DNA from: Betaproteobacteria bacterium
GTDB lineage: Bacteria > Pseudomonadota > Gammaproteobacteria > Burkholderiales > UBA3065
Assembly: GCA_009923755.1 (NCBI GenBank)
Contig: RFSW01000006.1
Span: forward strand, 1-36,886
Direction of reading: 5' to 3'
DNA length: 36,886 nt
Both the position numbers and the translations under genes were made by a program. Below, piece by piece: positions 30,896-36,886 of this stretch. Every line of letters starts with the position of its first letter. The stretch's first letter is position 1. Below the pieces are notes generated by a model. The model saw only the letters and a list, made by a program, of their open reading frames with translations, was not told the DNA's origin and did no database searches.

Positions 30896-31372
30896 CTACA
30901 GGAAGCGCTCGAGGAACTTCCGGCTGGCGCGATCGAGCGCCGGGATGTCGCGGATCAGGTACTGAACGCCGGCAGCGTCGGCCACCAGCAGACTGCTGCC
31001 ACCGACCCGCTGCAGCGCCTCCTCGCCCGGCAGCAGCAACTCGGTGTTGCCGCGGTCGGTGCGCACTGTCCAGCGGCTCGGCGTGGAGATGCTGCTGATT
31101 GCAAGAATGGCCTCGATCACCGGCGTGAACTCGCGGCTGGCCAGCGCCGCCTCGATCCGCTCGCGGCGAGCCTCATCAAGCGCCGCAAGATCGTCAATCC
31201 AGAGCAGTTCGTGACCGTCGGCATCGAGCACGGAGACCGCGTCGTCAGGCGCGCTGATCGGGAAGGCACGGGCCACCGTCACGCGAGCGTGCACCATGCC
31301 ATCCGCCTCGAGACACCAATGCCCGGCCGCATCGCGCATCAAGGCCCAGTGGAAAGGGATGGGTACGTTCAT
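30896..31372 (-). CDS. DUF1854 protein associated with cyanophycin metabolism
   Basis: This is a 158-residue protein without signal or membrane segments. It has the DUF1854 pattern: ARAFPISAPDDAVSVLDADG, a conserved HELLWIDDL block, then TPSRWTVRTDRGNTELLLPG and QYLIRDIPALDRASRKFLER. In betaproteobacteria this family recurs next to a specific ABC transporter and cyanophycin synthetases, which is exactly the arrangement here. Its biochemical role is unknown. Its start overlaps the transporter stop (ATGA, 31369-31372), so the two are translated together. Confidence 0.85.
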   Translation of the reverse strand: MNVPIPFHWALMRDAAGHWCLEADGMVHARVTVARAFPISAPDDAVSVLDADGHELLWIDDLAALDEARRERIEAALASREFTPVIEAILAISSISTPSRWTVRTDRGNTELLLPGEEALQRVGGSSLLVADAAGVQYLIRDIPALDRASRKFLERFL

Positions 31373-33630
31373 GCCACGCCGCCGTCGGCCACCGCGCCGG
31401 TGCCGACCACCCCATCTTCGAGCAAGGCCTCGGCCTGACGCGCCTGCGCCTGATGCAAAGCGTAGTAGGCGCCACGGCGGGCCATCAGCTCGTCGTGGGT
31501 GCCGGTCTCGACCATCTCGCCGCGGTCCAGCACCACCAGGCGATCGGCTTTGCGCAGGGTCGACAAACGGTGTGCTATGGCAATGGTGGTGCGGCCGCGC
31601 ACCAGATTGTCGAGCGCGGCCTGGATCGCTTTCTCGGTGGTCGAGTCGACCGACGACGTGGCCTCGTCGAGGATAAGGATGCGTGGGTCGATCAGCAGCG
31701 CCCGCGCGATGCTGATGCGCTGGCGCTCGCCGCCGGAAAGCGACTGCCCGCGCTCGCCGACCAGCGAATCGTAACCGTGCGGCAGGCGCATGATGAACTC
31801 GTGCGCGTTGGCCGCCCGCGCCGCGGCGACCACCTCGGCGCGGCCCGCATCCGGCCGTCCGTAGGCGATGTTCTCGGCAATGGTGCCGAAGAACAGGAAG
31901 GGCTCCTGCAGCACCAGGCCGATGTTGCGCCGATAGTCGGCCACTGCGAGTTCACGGACATCGATGCCGTCGACGCGGACGGCGCCTTCACTCGGGTCGT
32001 GGAAGCGGCAGACCAGGTTGACCAGGGTGCTTTTACCCGAGCCGCTGTGCCCGACCACGCCGATCATCTCGCCAGGCCGGATGTCCAGACTCAGCCGGCG
32101 GATGACCTGCCGGTTGCCGTAGCGGAAACTCACGTCATCGAGCTGGATGCGCCCCTGCACGGGCGGTAAGGGCCTCGGCTGGGCCGGCTCCGGCACGTTG
32201 CTCTGGTGGTCAAGGATGTCGAAGATGCGCTTGGCGCCGGCCGCCGCCTTCTGCGTGTGCGAAACGATGCGGCTCATGCTGTCGAGCCGCGTGTAGAAGC
32301 GGCCGATATAGGCGATGAAGGCGGCCAGCGTACCGACCGTGATCTCGTCGTTGGAGACCTGCCAGATGCCGAAGGTCCAGACCACCAGCAAGCCGATCTC
32401 GGTCAGCAGCGTGACGCTCGGCGCAAACATCGACCAGACCTTGTTGACGCGGTCGTTGATCTCGAGGTTGTGCCGGTTGGCGGCGTGAAAACGTCCGGCC
32501 TCGCGGCCCTCCTGGGCAAAGGCCTTGACCACACGGATGCCGGGGATGGTGTCGGCCAGCACATTGGTCACCTCAGACCAGATCCGGTCGGCACGCTCGA
32601 AGCCGCGGCGCAGACGGTCGCGCACCACATGGATCAGGTAGCCGATGACGGGAAGCGGCAGCAGGGTGACCAGCGCCAACCAGGGGTTGATGCTGAACAA
32701 GACGGCTGCGGTCATCCCGATCATCAGCACGTCGGTGGCGAAGTCGAGCAGGTGCAGCGAGAGGAACAGGTTGATGCGCTCGGTCTCGGCGCCGATGCGC
32801 GCCATCAGGTCGCCGGTGCGCTTGCTGCCGAAGTACGACACCGACTGGTTGAGCAGGTGCTCGAAGGTGGCGGTGCGCAGGTCGGCCCCGATACGCTCCG
32901 AAACGCGCGCCAACACATAGGTGCGGGCCCAACCGAGCCCCCAGCCGACCAGCGCGGCTGCGAGCAGGCCGAACATGTAGAGGCTGACCAGTTGCTTGTC
33001 GAGATCCTGACCGTTCTGGTATGGAATCAGCAGCTTGTCCATCAGCGGCTTGGTGAGATACGGCGGAACCAGAGTCGCCGACGTGGCGAGCATGGTCAGC
33101 ACGAAACCGAGCAACAGACGCGACCGGTAGGGTCGCGCAAAGCGCCAGAGCCTCAGCAGGGTCAGGGTGGATGGCGGTTGCTCATCTTCGGCGCAGGTCT
33201 CACACAGCACAACGCCCACTGGCACCTCAACGCCACAGGCACGGCAGTTTGCGGCCGATAGAGCCTCATCGCCCTCGCGCCAGCGATGCCAAGCGTCGAC
33301 AAGCGACTGCGCCGCCGGTTGCAGCCCGAGACGCAGTTCCCAGCGCGCAAGCAAGGTCTCGCCCGAGCGCCAGTCGAGGCTGACGACGCCAGCATGGTCG
33401 ATCAGACTGAGTTCGCCATCCCGCAAGGGCCACTCGCCGACCACGTGGACGCGGCGATCGAGCCACTGCAACGAGAGGATACGACTGGTCGAGAGCGCCA
33501 CCGCGCCGGGCTGGAAACGGCGCGCAGCGTCGAGGTCGGTCTCGGCGATGGCAAGCAGGGCCTCGTCGGATGACAGATGGGCTGTCGCCGCCCTGGACCA
33601 GGCATCGACGTCGAGGATGGGCTGGCTCAT
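31369..33630 (-). CDS. ABC transporter (half-transporter) associated with cyanophycin locus
   Basis: This is a 753-residue fused permease-ATPase. It has an N-terminal extension of about 155 residues with a zinc-ribbon (CRAC at 129-132, CETC at 143-146), then a six-helix type IV exporter domain (about 165-465) and a nucleotide-binding domain with Walker A GHSGSGKST (527-535), signature LSGGERQ (631-637) and Walker B ILILDEA (651-657). It resembles lipid/multidrug half-exporters and would work as a homodimer. The extension is unusual and sets it apart from MsbA. It is co-translated with DUF1854 and divergent from the cyanophycin synthetase genes. The substrate is unknown. ATG 33630 is chosen; an upstream start at 33687 would run through the shared inverted repeat. 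Confidence 0.88.
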   Translation of the reverse strand: MSQPILDVDAWSRAATAHLSSDEALLAIAETDLDAARRFQPGAVALSTSRILSLQWLDRRVHVVGEWPLRDGELSLIDHAGVVSLDWRSGETLLARWELRLGLQPAAQSLVDAWHRWREGDEALSAANCRACGVEVPVGVVLCETCAEDEQPPSTLTLLRLWRFARPYRSRLLLGFVLTMLATSATLVPPYLTKPLMDKLLIPYQNGQDLDKQLVSLYMFGLLAAALVGWGLGWARTYVLARVSERIGADLRTATFEHLLNQSVSYFGSKRTGDLMARIGAETERINLFLSLHLLDFATDVLMIGMTAAVLFSINPWLALVTLLPLPVIGYLIHVVRDRLRRGFERADRIWSEVTNVLADTIPGIRVVKAFAQEGREAGRFHAANRHNLEINDRVNKVWSMFAPSVTLLTEIGLLVVWTFGIWQVSNDEITVGTLAAFIAYIGRFYTRLDSMSRIVSHTQKAAAGAKRIFDILDHQSNVPEPAQPRPLPPVQGRIQLDDVSFRYGNRQVIRRLSLDIRPGEMIGVVGHSGSGKSTLVNLVCRFHDPSEGAVRVDGIDVRELAVADYRRNIGLVLQEPFLFFGTIAENIAYGRPDAGRAEVVAAARAANAHEFIMRLPHGYDSLVGERGQSLSGGERQRISIARALLIDPRILILDEATSSVDSTTEKAIQAALDNLVRGRTTIAIAHRLSTLRKADRLVVLDRGEMVETGTHDELMARRGAYYALHQAQARQAEALLEDGVVGTGAVADGGVA

Positions 33631-33653
33631 TGGCTCTGAATGCTCTTCACGGC

Positions 33654-33687
33654 GTGTCAACGCTGGGGCGGGCGGGCGCGTTGACAC
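33654..33687. promoter_or_regulatory. Perfect 10-bp inverted repeat in the divergent cyanophycin control region
   Basis: GTGTCAACGC (33654-33663) and GCGTTGACAC (33678-33687) are perfect reverse complements separated by 14 G-rich bases. They sit in the 81-bp gap between the divergent transporter and synthetase genes, 24 bases from each start codon. Each arm contains TTGACA on one strand, but no -10 box fits at 16-18 bases, so an operator shared by both directions is more likely than two promoters. Confidence 0.65.
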
Positions 33688-33711: not shown

Positions 33712-35889
33712 ATGCCCAGTGATCTCCGCCCCGCGCGCTTTGACATCAAGCTGCTGAGCGTCCGCTATATCGCCGGTCCGAACGTCTGGACCGTGGAGTA
33801 TCACCCCATCATCGAGGCGCTGGTCGACATCGGCGCCCTCGAAGATTTCCCCTCCGACACCCTGCCGGGCCTGCCCGAGCGGCTCGAAGCCTGGCTGCCC
33901 GGCCTCATCGAGCACCGCTGCAGCGTCGGCGAGCGCGGTGGCTTTCTGCAGCGCCTGCACCGCGGCACCTGGCCGGCGCACATCATGGAACACGTCACCC
34001 TCGAGCTGCAGTCGATGGCCGGCTTCGAGGGCGGCTTCGGCCGTGCCCGCGAGATCTCACGACGCGGTGTCTATAAGGTCGCGGTGAGCGTGCAGCACGA
34101 ATCGGTCGGTCGGCGCGCCATGGCAGCCGCGCGCGACCTGGTGCTCGCCGCCATCCACGATGAGCCCTTCGACGTCGCGGCGGTGGTCGAGGAACTGCGC
34201 GACATGGCCGATGCGCTCTGCCTCGGCCCGAGCACCTCGCACATCGTCGCAGCCGCCAAGGCGCGCCGCATCCCCTTCATGCGGCTCAATAGCGGCAACC
34301 TCGTGCAGATCGGTCATGGCGCGGCCCAGCGCCGCATCTGGACCGCCGAGACCGACGGCACCAGCGCCATCGCCGAGGGCATCTCGCGCGACAAACAGCT
34401 CACCCGCCAGTTGCTCTCCGCCTGCGGTGTGTCGGTGCCCCGCGGCCGCCAGGTCGACAGCCCCGAGGACGCCTGGGAAGCCGCCGAGGACCTCGGCGTG
34501 CCGGTGGTGGTCAAGCCGCTCGACGGCAACCACGGGCGCGGCGTATTCACCAACCTCTCGACCCGGGAGGAGGTGGTGGCTGCCTATGCGGTTGCCATCA
34601 ATGAGGGCAGCGGCGTGCTGGTCGAGCGCTTCATCGACGGCCTTGAGCACCGGCTGCTGGTGGTCGGCGACCGTCTGGTGGCAGCCGCCCGCGGCGACAT
34701 CGCCAGCGTGACCGGCGATGGCCGCTCGACCCTGCTGGAGCTGATCGAGTCCCAACTCAACAGCGACCCGCGACGCGGCAACGGCGAAGACCAACCGCTC
34801 AACCGCGTGCGCCTTGACTCGGCGGCGCGCATCGAGATCGCGCATCAAGGTTATGCAGCCGGCGACGCCGTGCCGGCCGCCGGCGTCGAGGTGGTCATCC
34901 AACGCAACGGCAATGTCGCCATCGACTGCACTGCCGCCGTGAATCCTGCGGTCGCCGCACAAGCGTGCCTGGCAGCCCGCATCGTCGGGCTCGACATCGC
35001 CGGCATCGACATCGTCTCTGCCGACATCGGTCGGCCCTTCGCCGAGACCGGCGGCGCAATCGTCGAGGTCAACGCCGGCCCCGGCCTGCTGATGCACATC
35101 AAGCCGGCCGAAGGCACGCCGCAGCCGGTCGGCAGCGCCATCATCGGCCACCTGTTCCCCGAAGGCGCCACTGGCCGCATCCCCTTGGTCGGCGTCAGCG
35201 GCAGCCACGGCACCGCGCTCACCGCGCAGCTCATCGCCCGCATCCTCTCGCTGCACCCCTGGCGCACCGGGCTGGTCTGTGGCGCACCCACCGACACCGC
35301 CGGCATCGTCACACCGTCGCGTCGCGAACCGGTATTCGAGCAGGGCCGCAAGGTCCTCATGAACCCGGCGGTGCAGGCTGCGGTGATCGAGACGCCGATG
35401 CGCGAACTGCTCGATGAGGGCACCTGCTACGACGTCTGCAGCGTAGGTGTGGTCACCGGCCTCGATACGGCGCAGACCTTCCCCGACCGCGATATGGAGA
35501 CGCCCGAACAACTGCACACCATCCTCCGCACACAAGTCGACGTGGTGCCCAAGTGGGGCGTGGCCGTCCTCAATGCCGAAGATGAGATCGTCGCCAGCAT
35601 GGCCGAACTGAGCGAGGGCGAGGTCATCTACTTCTCACGTGACGCCTTGCATCCGACAGTCGCGGCGCACCTCGCGGCCGGTGGTCGGGCCGTGGTGTTG
35701 GCAGACGACGAGTTGCAATTGCGGCACGGCACGACGCGGGAGACCCTGTGCGACACTAGCGACCTCCCCGGAGGCTGCCCCGACACACCGGGCTGCCGGG
35801 CCCATCTGGCCGCGGTGGCAACGGCGTGGGCGCTCGACTTCAATTGCGAGCGCATCCGTGCCGCCGTATTGCACCCGCTCACTGTCTAA
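33712..35889 (+). CDS. Cyanophycin synthetase-like protein lacking a functional Mur-ligase site
   Basis: This is a 725-residue protein. The N-domain (about 1-160, starting KLLSVRYIAGPNVWTVEY) is followed by an ATP-grasp domain (about 215-480) with VVVKPLDGNHGRGVF and GGAIVEVNAGPGLLMH, which in CphA adds Asp to the polymer. The Mur-ligase domain starts at 490, but its P-loop reads GVSGSHGTAL (494-503) instead of GxxGxNGKTT, losing the ATP-binding Lys and Thr. The protein also stops about 150 residues before the usual CphA end (about 870-900), so the C-terminal Mur lobe is absent. It probably acts as one half of a pair with the complete-looking synthetase 14 bp downstream, or polymerises dipeptides. 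The ATG follows CTTCTCC, a poor ribosome site. Confidence 0.88.
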   Translation: MPSDLRPARFDIKLLSVRYIAGPNVWTVEYHPIIEALVDIGALEDFPSDTLPGLPERLEAWLPGLIEHRCSVGERGGFLQRLHRGTWPAHIMEHVTLELQSMAGFEGGFGRAREISRRGVYKVAVSVQHESVGRRAMAAARDLVLAAIHDEPFDVAAVVEELRDMADALCLGPSTSHIVAAAKARRIPFMRLNSGNLVQIGHGAAQRRIWTAETDGTSAIAEGISRDKQLTRQLLSACGVSVPRGRQVDSPEDAWEAAEDLGVPVVVKPLDGNHGRGVFTNLSTREEVVAAYAVAINEGSGVLVERFIDGLEHRLLVVGDRLVAAARGDIASVTGDGRSTLLELIESQLNSDPRRGNGEDQPLNRVRLDSAARIEIAHQGYAAGDAVPAAGVEVVIQRNGNVAIDCTAAVNPAVAAQACLAARIVGLDIAGIDIVSADIGRPFAETGGAIVEVNAGPGLLMHIKPAEGTPQPVGSAIIGHLFPEGATGRIPLVGVSGSHGTALTAQLIARILSLHPWRTGLVCGAPTDTAGIVTPSRREPVFEQGRKVLMNPAVQAAVIETPMRELLDEGTCYDVCSVGVVTGLDTAQTFPDRDMETPEQLHTILRTQVDVVPKWGVAVLNAEDEIVASMAELSEGEVIYFSRDALHPTVAAHLAAGGRAVVLADDELQLRHGTTRETLCDTSDLPGGCPDTPGCRAHLAAVATAWALDFNCERIRAAVLHPLTV

Positions 35890-35903: not shown

Positions 35904-36886
35904 ATGGATGTCTCCCGAATTCGCGCGCTGCGCGGACCTAATCTGTGGACGCGCGAGACGGCGATCGAGGCGATCGTCACGCTGACGCCCGACGAAAGCG
36001 CCCTTGACCGCAATCCTGGCTTTGAACAACGCCTGCGCGCTCATCTGCCGGGTCTTGGCCGGATCGCCTGCTTGCCCGCAGATGGCACCACATCCCTGGC
36101 CCACGCGCTCGAGGCTGTCGTGTTGGCGCTACAGGCCTCCGCCGGCTGTCCGGTGAGCTTCAGCCGCACCGTGCATGCAGTGCGCGAAAACGTCTACCAG
36201 GTGGTGGTGCAGTACAGCGAAGAGGCCGTCGGAAGGCGTGCTTTCGAATACGCGGAAGCCCTCTGTCGGGCTGCCTGGAGTGGCACCGACTTCGACCTCG
36301 CGACCGCGTTGGCCGAGTTACACGAACTCGACCAAGACATCCGACTGGGCCCCAGCACCGGGGCCATCGTGCAGGCGGCCATGGCGCGCGGCATCCCGCA
36401 TCGGCGCCTCACTGAAGGCAGTCTGGTGCAGTTCGGTTGGGGTTCGCGCCAAAAACGCATTCAAGCCGCTGAGACCGGGCGCACCAGTGCTATCGCCGAA
36501 TCGATCGCGCAGGACAAGGAGCTGACCAAAGACCTGCTGCACGCCGCCGGGGTGCCCGTGCCGCTCGGTCGAAGTGTCAGCGATGCAGCGGACGCGTGGG
36601 CGGCGGCGCAGGAGATCGGCTTGCCCGTGGTGGTCAAGCCGCGTGACGGCAATCAAGGCAAGGGTGTGGCGGTGAACCTGTGCGAGCGCGAAGCAGTGAA
36701 GGCGGCCTACGCCGTCGCCGCCTCCTTCCGCGACGACGTGATGGTCGAACGTTACCTGCCCGGCAACGACTTCCGTCTCCTGGTGGTGGGCGATCGCCTC
36801 ATCGCTGCTGCGCGCCGCGACCCGCCGCTGGTCACTGGCGACGGCGTCCATTCCGTCCGCCAACTGGTGGACGAGGTCAACAAGGA
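35904..36886 (+). CDS. cphA: Cyanophycin synthetase, second copy (3' end outside window)
   Basis: The frame is open from the ATG at 35904 to the window end, about 327 residues. The N-domain begins MDVSRIRALRGPNLWTRETA; the ATP-grasp domain has QDIRLGPSTGAIVQAAMARG, DKELTKDLLHAAGVPVPLG and VVVKPRDGNQGKGV. Its N-terminal half parallels the first synthetase throughout, showing an old duplication. The Mur-ligase P-loop that matters for Arg addition lies beyond the window. It starts 14 bp after the first synthetase gene and is surely in the same operon. Cyanophycin synthetase builds the Asp-Arg storage polymer without ribosomes. Confidence 0.9.
   Translation, partial: MDVSRIRALRGPNLWTRETAIEAIVTLTPDESALDRNPGFEQRLRAHLPGLGRIACLPADGTTSLAHALEAVVLALQASAGCPVSFSRTVHAVRENVYQVVVQYSEEAVGRRAFEYAEALCRAAWSGTDFDLATALAELHELDQDIRLGPSTGAIVQAAMARGIPHRRLTEGSLVQFGWGSRQKRIQAAETGRTSAIAESIAQDKELTKDLLHAAGVPVPLGRSVSDAADAWAAAQEIGLPVVVKPRDGNQGKGVAVNLCEREAVKAAYAVAASFRDDVMVERYLPGNDFRLLVVGDRLIAAARRDPPLVTGDGVHSVRQLVDEVNK

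Follow-up and report, generated by a model that had tools for sequence, protein, structure and literature searches.

Why should a bacterium carry two cyanophycin synthetase genes side by side when the first of them has a dead Mur-ligase site? Cyanophycin is a nitrogen-storage polymer of bacteria, and the question is raised by a 36,886-nt stretch of DNA (contig RFSW01000006.1, here called the window) from a Betaproteobacteria bacterium of the Burkholderiales, whose genome is 83% complete. We compared the upstream protein, CphA', and its downstream partner, CphA, with SuCphA1 of Synechocystis, whose numbering is used for equivalent residues. Judged from the residues that each has kept and lost, the two proteins appear to split one enzyme's work, and the complementary state of their N-domain sites is the most informative feature of the pair. 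The features of the locus are as follows.

33712-35889, + strand: CphA' (725 aa), CphA1-derived, with N site intact, G site altered, M site dead and no Mlid
33745-34230, + strand: N domain, residues 12-173; PF18921 at 38-148 (E 1.2e-32); model pLDDT mostly >90
33913-33993, + strand: metallopeptidase-like site Cx19HxxEH (H68, C70, R81, H90, E93, H94), from sequence and alignment
34231-35169, + strand: G (ATP-grasp) domain, residues 174-486, ATP-binding residues kept
34513-34542, + strand: G-domain P-loop KPLDGNHGRG; H274 equals H267 of SuCphA1
34693-34695, + strand: G328, in place of Asp-binding R323
34900-34932, + strand: Asp-recognition loop, ANLSTGG changed to RNGNV, S396 deleted
35089-35091, + strand: L460, in place of Asp-binding R458
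35170-35886, + strand: Mcore only, residues 487-725, no Mlid
35191-35220, + strand: degenerate Mur P-loop GVSGSHGTAL, residues 494-503
35527-35541, + strand: R606 and D610 in Mcore, equivalent to S603 and E607 of SuCphA1
35904-36886, + strand: 5' part of partner CphA, truncated where the contig ends; N motif absent, DGNQGKG, R309 and R323 kept
31369-33687, - strand: cyanophycin metabolism-associated ABC transporter, NF052233
30896-31372, - strand: cyanophycin metabolism-associated DUF1854 protein, NF052234

The CphA' reading frame opens with an ATG at 33712, and its stop codon ends at 35889. The original prediction held that its Mur P-loop is destroyed and its C-terminal Mur lobe missing, and alignment to SuCphA1 bears out both points. 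GVSGSHGTAL stands where SuCphA1 has GTNGKTTT, and the Mur ATP site of CphA1 (K499, T500, D585, H586) is lost, with K499 replaced by Thr, T500 by Ala and D585/H586 by Gln/Thr; the chain terminates with Mcore, at SuCphA1 residue ~724, and none of the ~130 Mlid positions is aligned. No intact substitute P-loop appears at any other place in the aligned M domain. Two congeners (G004 at 88% and G002 at 83%) have GVSGSHGTAL or GVSGSHGSAL at this place and the same C-terminus, and because these same-genus relatives share both lesions, a sequencing error is ruled out. A decaying pseudogene is likewise excluded by these common lesions and by a dN/dS of 0.10-0.25 across all three CphA' domains. A scan for promoters and terminators found nothing.

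In a profile search CphA' matched CphA1 over residues 12-719, with the N, G and Mcore architecture present and Mlid missing. It scored above the cut-off of the PRK14016 subfamily (NF010623; 920 against 877 bits) and below that of the equivalog TIGR02068 (650 against 850 bits). The AlphaFold2 model (pLDDT 91, pTM 0.87) aligns to chain residues 1-724 of 7wae and 7txv, and the latter, SuCphA1 E82Q with cyanophycin bound, was the best Foldseek match (TM 0.87). TM scores were 0.86-0.88 to cyanobacterial CphA1, compared with 0.62-0.66 to CphA2. The protein thus shares with CphA1 (SuCphA1; TeCphA1) the N-G-Mcore fold, the Cx19HxxEH site and the ATP-grasp ATP residues, and differs from it in the lost Asp pocket and, in the window, in the lost M ATP site and Mlid. 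With CphA2, the cyanobacterial dipeptide polymerase to which it had been likened, it has in common the lack of a full M domain, at most one ligase activity, and a replaced R458 (Tyr in CphA2 8fxh, then HLKPA; CphA' has LLMHxKPA). In contrast to CphA', CphA2 has no N-domain Cx19HxxEH motif (PMC9262961) and keeps R323 and the NLSSGG loop (8fxh); identity is 21-24%. The CphA2 assignment was therefore rejected on the N motif, the CphA1-like fold and the position of CphA' in a clade of its own among the CphA1s.

The claim that the ATP-grasp site is intact survived in part. The ATP residues K220, K261, H267, R309, D431 and E450 are all kept, whereas the Asp pocket is gone, R323 being replaced by Gly and R458 by Leu and the NLSTGG loop being deleted. 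Mutagenesis in TeCphA1 and SuCphA1 has shown that R323, the N394/S396 loop and R458 are needed for activity (PMC9427784). The N domain presents the opposite picture. Its site is intact in the window (C70-x19-H90xxE93H94), and H68, C70, R81, H90, E93 and H94 correspond to H57, C59, R70, H79, E82 and H83 of SuCphA1; the endo-cyanophycinase motif, Cx19HxxEH with the supporting residues H57, F67, R70, E87 and Y110, is present. The second synthetase, predicted to be complete, does adjoin: partner cphA starts at 35904, 14 nt after the CphA' stop, and contig C202 holds the rest of it, with NLSTGG, R458, GTNGKTTT, DHLGL, DYGHN, GDRRDED and Mlid.

To place the pair among its relatives, we examined the residues defined by structures and mutants (PMC9427784, PMC9262961) in an alignment of about 200 proteins to SuCphA1. 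CphA' was defined by loss of S396 in the G domain, and the N site was kept out of the definition. C59/H79/E82/H83 are intact in 102 of 102 CphA', a count that leaves out one mis-framed fragment, and in 0 of 95 partner CphA, in which the loop carrying H57 and C59 is missing altogether. The Asp pocket (R323/S396/R458) shows the reverse, 0 of 102 against 95 of 95. The second-shell residues H57, F67, R70, E87 and Y110 are all present in 100 CphA'. Position 267 is His in all 102 CphA' and Gln in 94 of 95 partners. H267 is essential in cyanobacterial CphA1 (H267A is inactive), yet nearly all partner CphA have Gln there (DGNQGKG); the partners L189 and L193 of family f198 keep His. The Mur core with H748 is complete in 92-93 of 93 partners and in 26 of about 102 CphA', mainly those of Cupriavidus, Ralstonia, Achromobacter, Bordetella and Pandoraea. 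Roughly one CphA' in four thus has a complete M domain, so that the Mur lesion is optional and was dropped as a defining trait; by these alignments, what is universal in about 100 tandem loci is the N site set against the Asp pocket.

CphA' is a conserved family found in tandem with full-length CphA in Burkholderiales. The pair recurs across families of the order (60 relatives), and among 398 evenly sampled genomes of the phylum at least two cphA N domains were present in 20 of 20 cphA-bearing Burkholderiales genomes, the window's own included; the ten cphA-bearing genomes from other orders had one copy each. A class sample added three further pairs, in family f198. A scan of named genomes gave at least 586 relatives, and the 80 kept for comparison include Cupriavidus, Ralstonia, Achromobacter, Bordetella, Pandoraea, Herbaspirillum, Nitrosomonas, Gallionella and Accumulibacter. 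Over 73 tandem loci the intergenic gap had a median of 43 nt and was always <200. These counts are not independent events, since all pairs descend from one duplication, and the loci share ancestry and include a few genomes entered twice (for example, L046 = L120). The divergent ABC transporter and DUF1854 protein are tied to almost every tandem cphA locus, with a close homologue of the window's transporter in 53 of 57 fully flanked loci; the association of both with cyanophycin is already in their NCBI family names.

As controls we used single-copy CphA1s from other orders, classes and phyla, drawn from even samples and plasmids. All sites were kept in one protein in 26 of 30 rows by alignment and in a 27th (L156) by motif search; the fixed-length alignment, which misplaces a few residues, had made L156 seem N-negative. 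Of the three true exceptions, one (L198) lies on a Chryseobacterium plasmid and two are additional copies in G058, where a CphA'/CphA pair is present as well. Two plasmid loci have other arrangements. L199:4001-5869 (Legionella adelaidensis) encodes a 622-aa protein in which a CphA N domain bearing an intact Cx19HxxEH is joined to a Mur domain and the ATP-grasp domain is all but missing; genes for cyanophycinase and isoaspartyl peptidase come next. L197:6832-8568 (Ruegeria sp. AD91A) encodes, directly 3' of a complete cphA, a member of the Mur-ligase family whose GTNGKTTT P-loop is intact.

The pair descends from an anciently duplicated cyanophycin synthetase, with a common origin for each copy. 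In an 86-protein tree CphA' forms one clade and partner CphA another, each with SH-aLRT support of 100 and with f198 included, and the window's CphA' clusters with the upstream copies from tandem loci (31 rows, support 100). Adjoining the CphA' clade (support 89) is L156 of genome G239, a CphA whose N, Asp and Mur sites are all intact and whose gene neighbours the same ABC transporter; it looks much as the pre-split protein should, in a genome that is 8% contaminated and on a contig that ends inside the gene. On contig C9 of G239, a single complete CphA (L200) with the N motif and Gln267 also lies beside this transporter, possibly the pre-duplication state. In the N+G tree, loss of the M site needs several changes, at least 2 or 3 of them forced by well-supported branches; within CphA' the M site was lost more than once and the N site never.

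We consider that CphA' acts in trans, providing primers on which CphA depends, and that CphA would itself do all the Asp and Arg addition; from the pattern of kept and lost residues we give this a probability of about two in three. CphA would add Asp through its G domain and Arg through its M domain, and because its N-domain site is lost it should depend on primers. CphA' would add no free Asp and, in the window, no Arg, and keeps its zinc-peptidase-like N site; with this it would cleave newly made cyanophycin to give short (beta-Asp-Arg)n primers, which CphA, encoded 14 nt downstream, would elongate. Mcore is probably kept as a platform under the N domain. In SuCphA1, S603 and E607 of Mcore touch the polymer bound at the N site (PMC9262961), and these positions are Arg and Asp in 124 of 125 CphA' rows, though the M ATP site is often dead, so completing the N site may be one reason for keeping Mcore. 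Published mixing experiments show that primer supply in trans is chemically possible: TmCphA1 of Tatumella, which lacks all four N-motif residues and is primer-dependent, becomes primer-independent in trans with SuCphA1 whose G and M domains are both killed, or with the isolated SuCphA1 N domain (PMC9262961). TmCphA1 is like the expected partner CphA in having active G and M domains, no N site and a need for primers; unlike it, TmCphA1 is distinct in sequence, and we found no CphA' partner described for it in open-access papers. Since N-site-less CphA1s without a CphA' exist (L198; Tatumella), CphA' would not be obligatory. Three further observations count against the primer reading: the N site departs from SuCphA1 at T101 and E90, wild-type R. 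eutropha, with its two homologs, makes no detectable cyanophycin according to a 2024 review (PMC11362209), and the G site is constrained (H267, R309, Mg ligands), which a pure primer-maker would not need. This last point may reflect a second activity, perhaps dipeptide ligation, or a structural role.

That constraint is the starting point for the reading in which CphA' is mainly a ligase, its G domain activating the cyanophycin C-terminus and joining a beta-Asp-Arg dipeptide or another amine in place of free Asp. We regard this as possible but doubtful. Most CphA' have kept the ATP and acyl-phosphate residues (H267 in 120 of 125 rows, besides R309 and the Mg ligands), G is the most constrained domain (dN/dS about 0.10-0.14), the loop deletion opens the Asp pocket, and the replaced R458 with its neighbouring motif recalls CphA2 8fxh. 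However, the two pockets are not alike, because 8fxh keeps R323 and the NLSSGG loop, both of which CphA' has lost; some CphA' without H267 (f198 and G284) or with further G residues lost (L158, L179, L186 and L187, the G domain of L187 being wrecked) persist in tandem with the N site intact; and the loss of the partner's N site is left unexplained. A combination of the two ideas, an obligate mixed assembly in which CphA' cuts polymer through N and joins a new acceptor such as beta-Asp-Arg through G before CphA elongates, seems unlikely to us; primers would then be made and recycled by the CphA' subunit and elongated by the CphA subunit. The Asp-adding role originally proposed for CphA' is hardly credible: H267 and the ATP-binding residues would suit it, but R323, the S396 loop and R458, each needed in characterised CphA1 (PMC9427784), are lost in every CphA' examined and kept by partner CphA.

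The N site itself could instead break the polymer down in place of a missing cyanophycinase. Most pair-bearing genomes in the relatives sample have no recognisable cyanophycinase, only G024 and G058 having one above the cut-off, and the absence of the enzyme from Betaproteobacteria was noted earlier (PMC5178258). We find this reading improbable, because SuCphA1 cleaves slowly at its N site to give mostly 4-mers rather than dipeptides (PMC9262961), and because single-copy CphA1s retain this site next to a cyanophycinase gene. If CphA' served mixed tetramers with CphA as a scaffold or regulator, its catalytic sites being irrelevant, the kept fold (pLDDT 91, TM 0.87 to SuCphA1) and purifying selection in all domains, the dead Mcore included, would fit; but there would be no reason to expect both the first and the second shell of the N site to be invariant across about 100 proteins with degenerate G or M sites, and we find this reading quite improbable.

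The tandem itself is already known, and corresponds to CphA/CphA' of Ralstonia eutropha (Cupriavidus) H16; the Cupriavidus and Gallionellaceae loci fall into the same two clades as the window pair. In 2013, Adames reportedly described CphA'H16 as lacking much of a G-domain loop. Two homologs are recorded in R. eutropha (PMC11362209), 'two copies of cphA' with an ABC transporter in Group 1 clusters of activated sludge (PMC10687191), and adjacent CphA1/CphA2 in Gallionellaceae (PMC5178258). We found no description of the reciprocal lesions or of a division of labour in the open-access papers that our search covered.

In conclusion, primer supply in trans suggests a natural version of the two-protein system that Sharon et al. 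built from mixed mutants, and databases probably mislabel the upstream gene when they call it 'cyanophycin synthetase'. It would predict which CphA1s are primer-dependent, and for polymer production CphA' would be a ready primer-making partner. A partner tested alone might look inactive, as each would lack what the other has. For many Burkholderiales, this would provide a testable reason for two adjacent synthetase genes.
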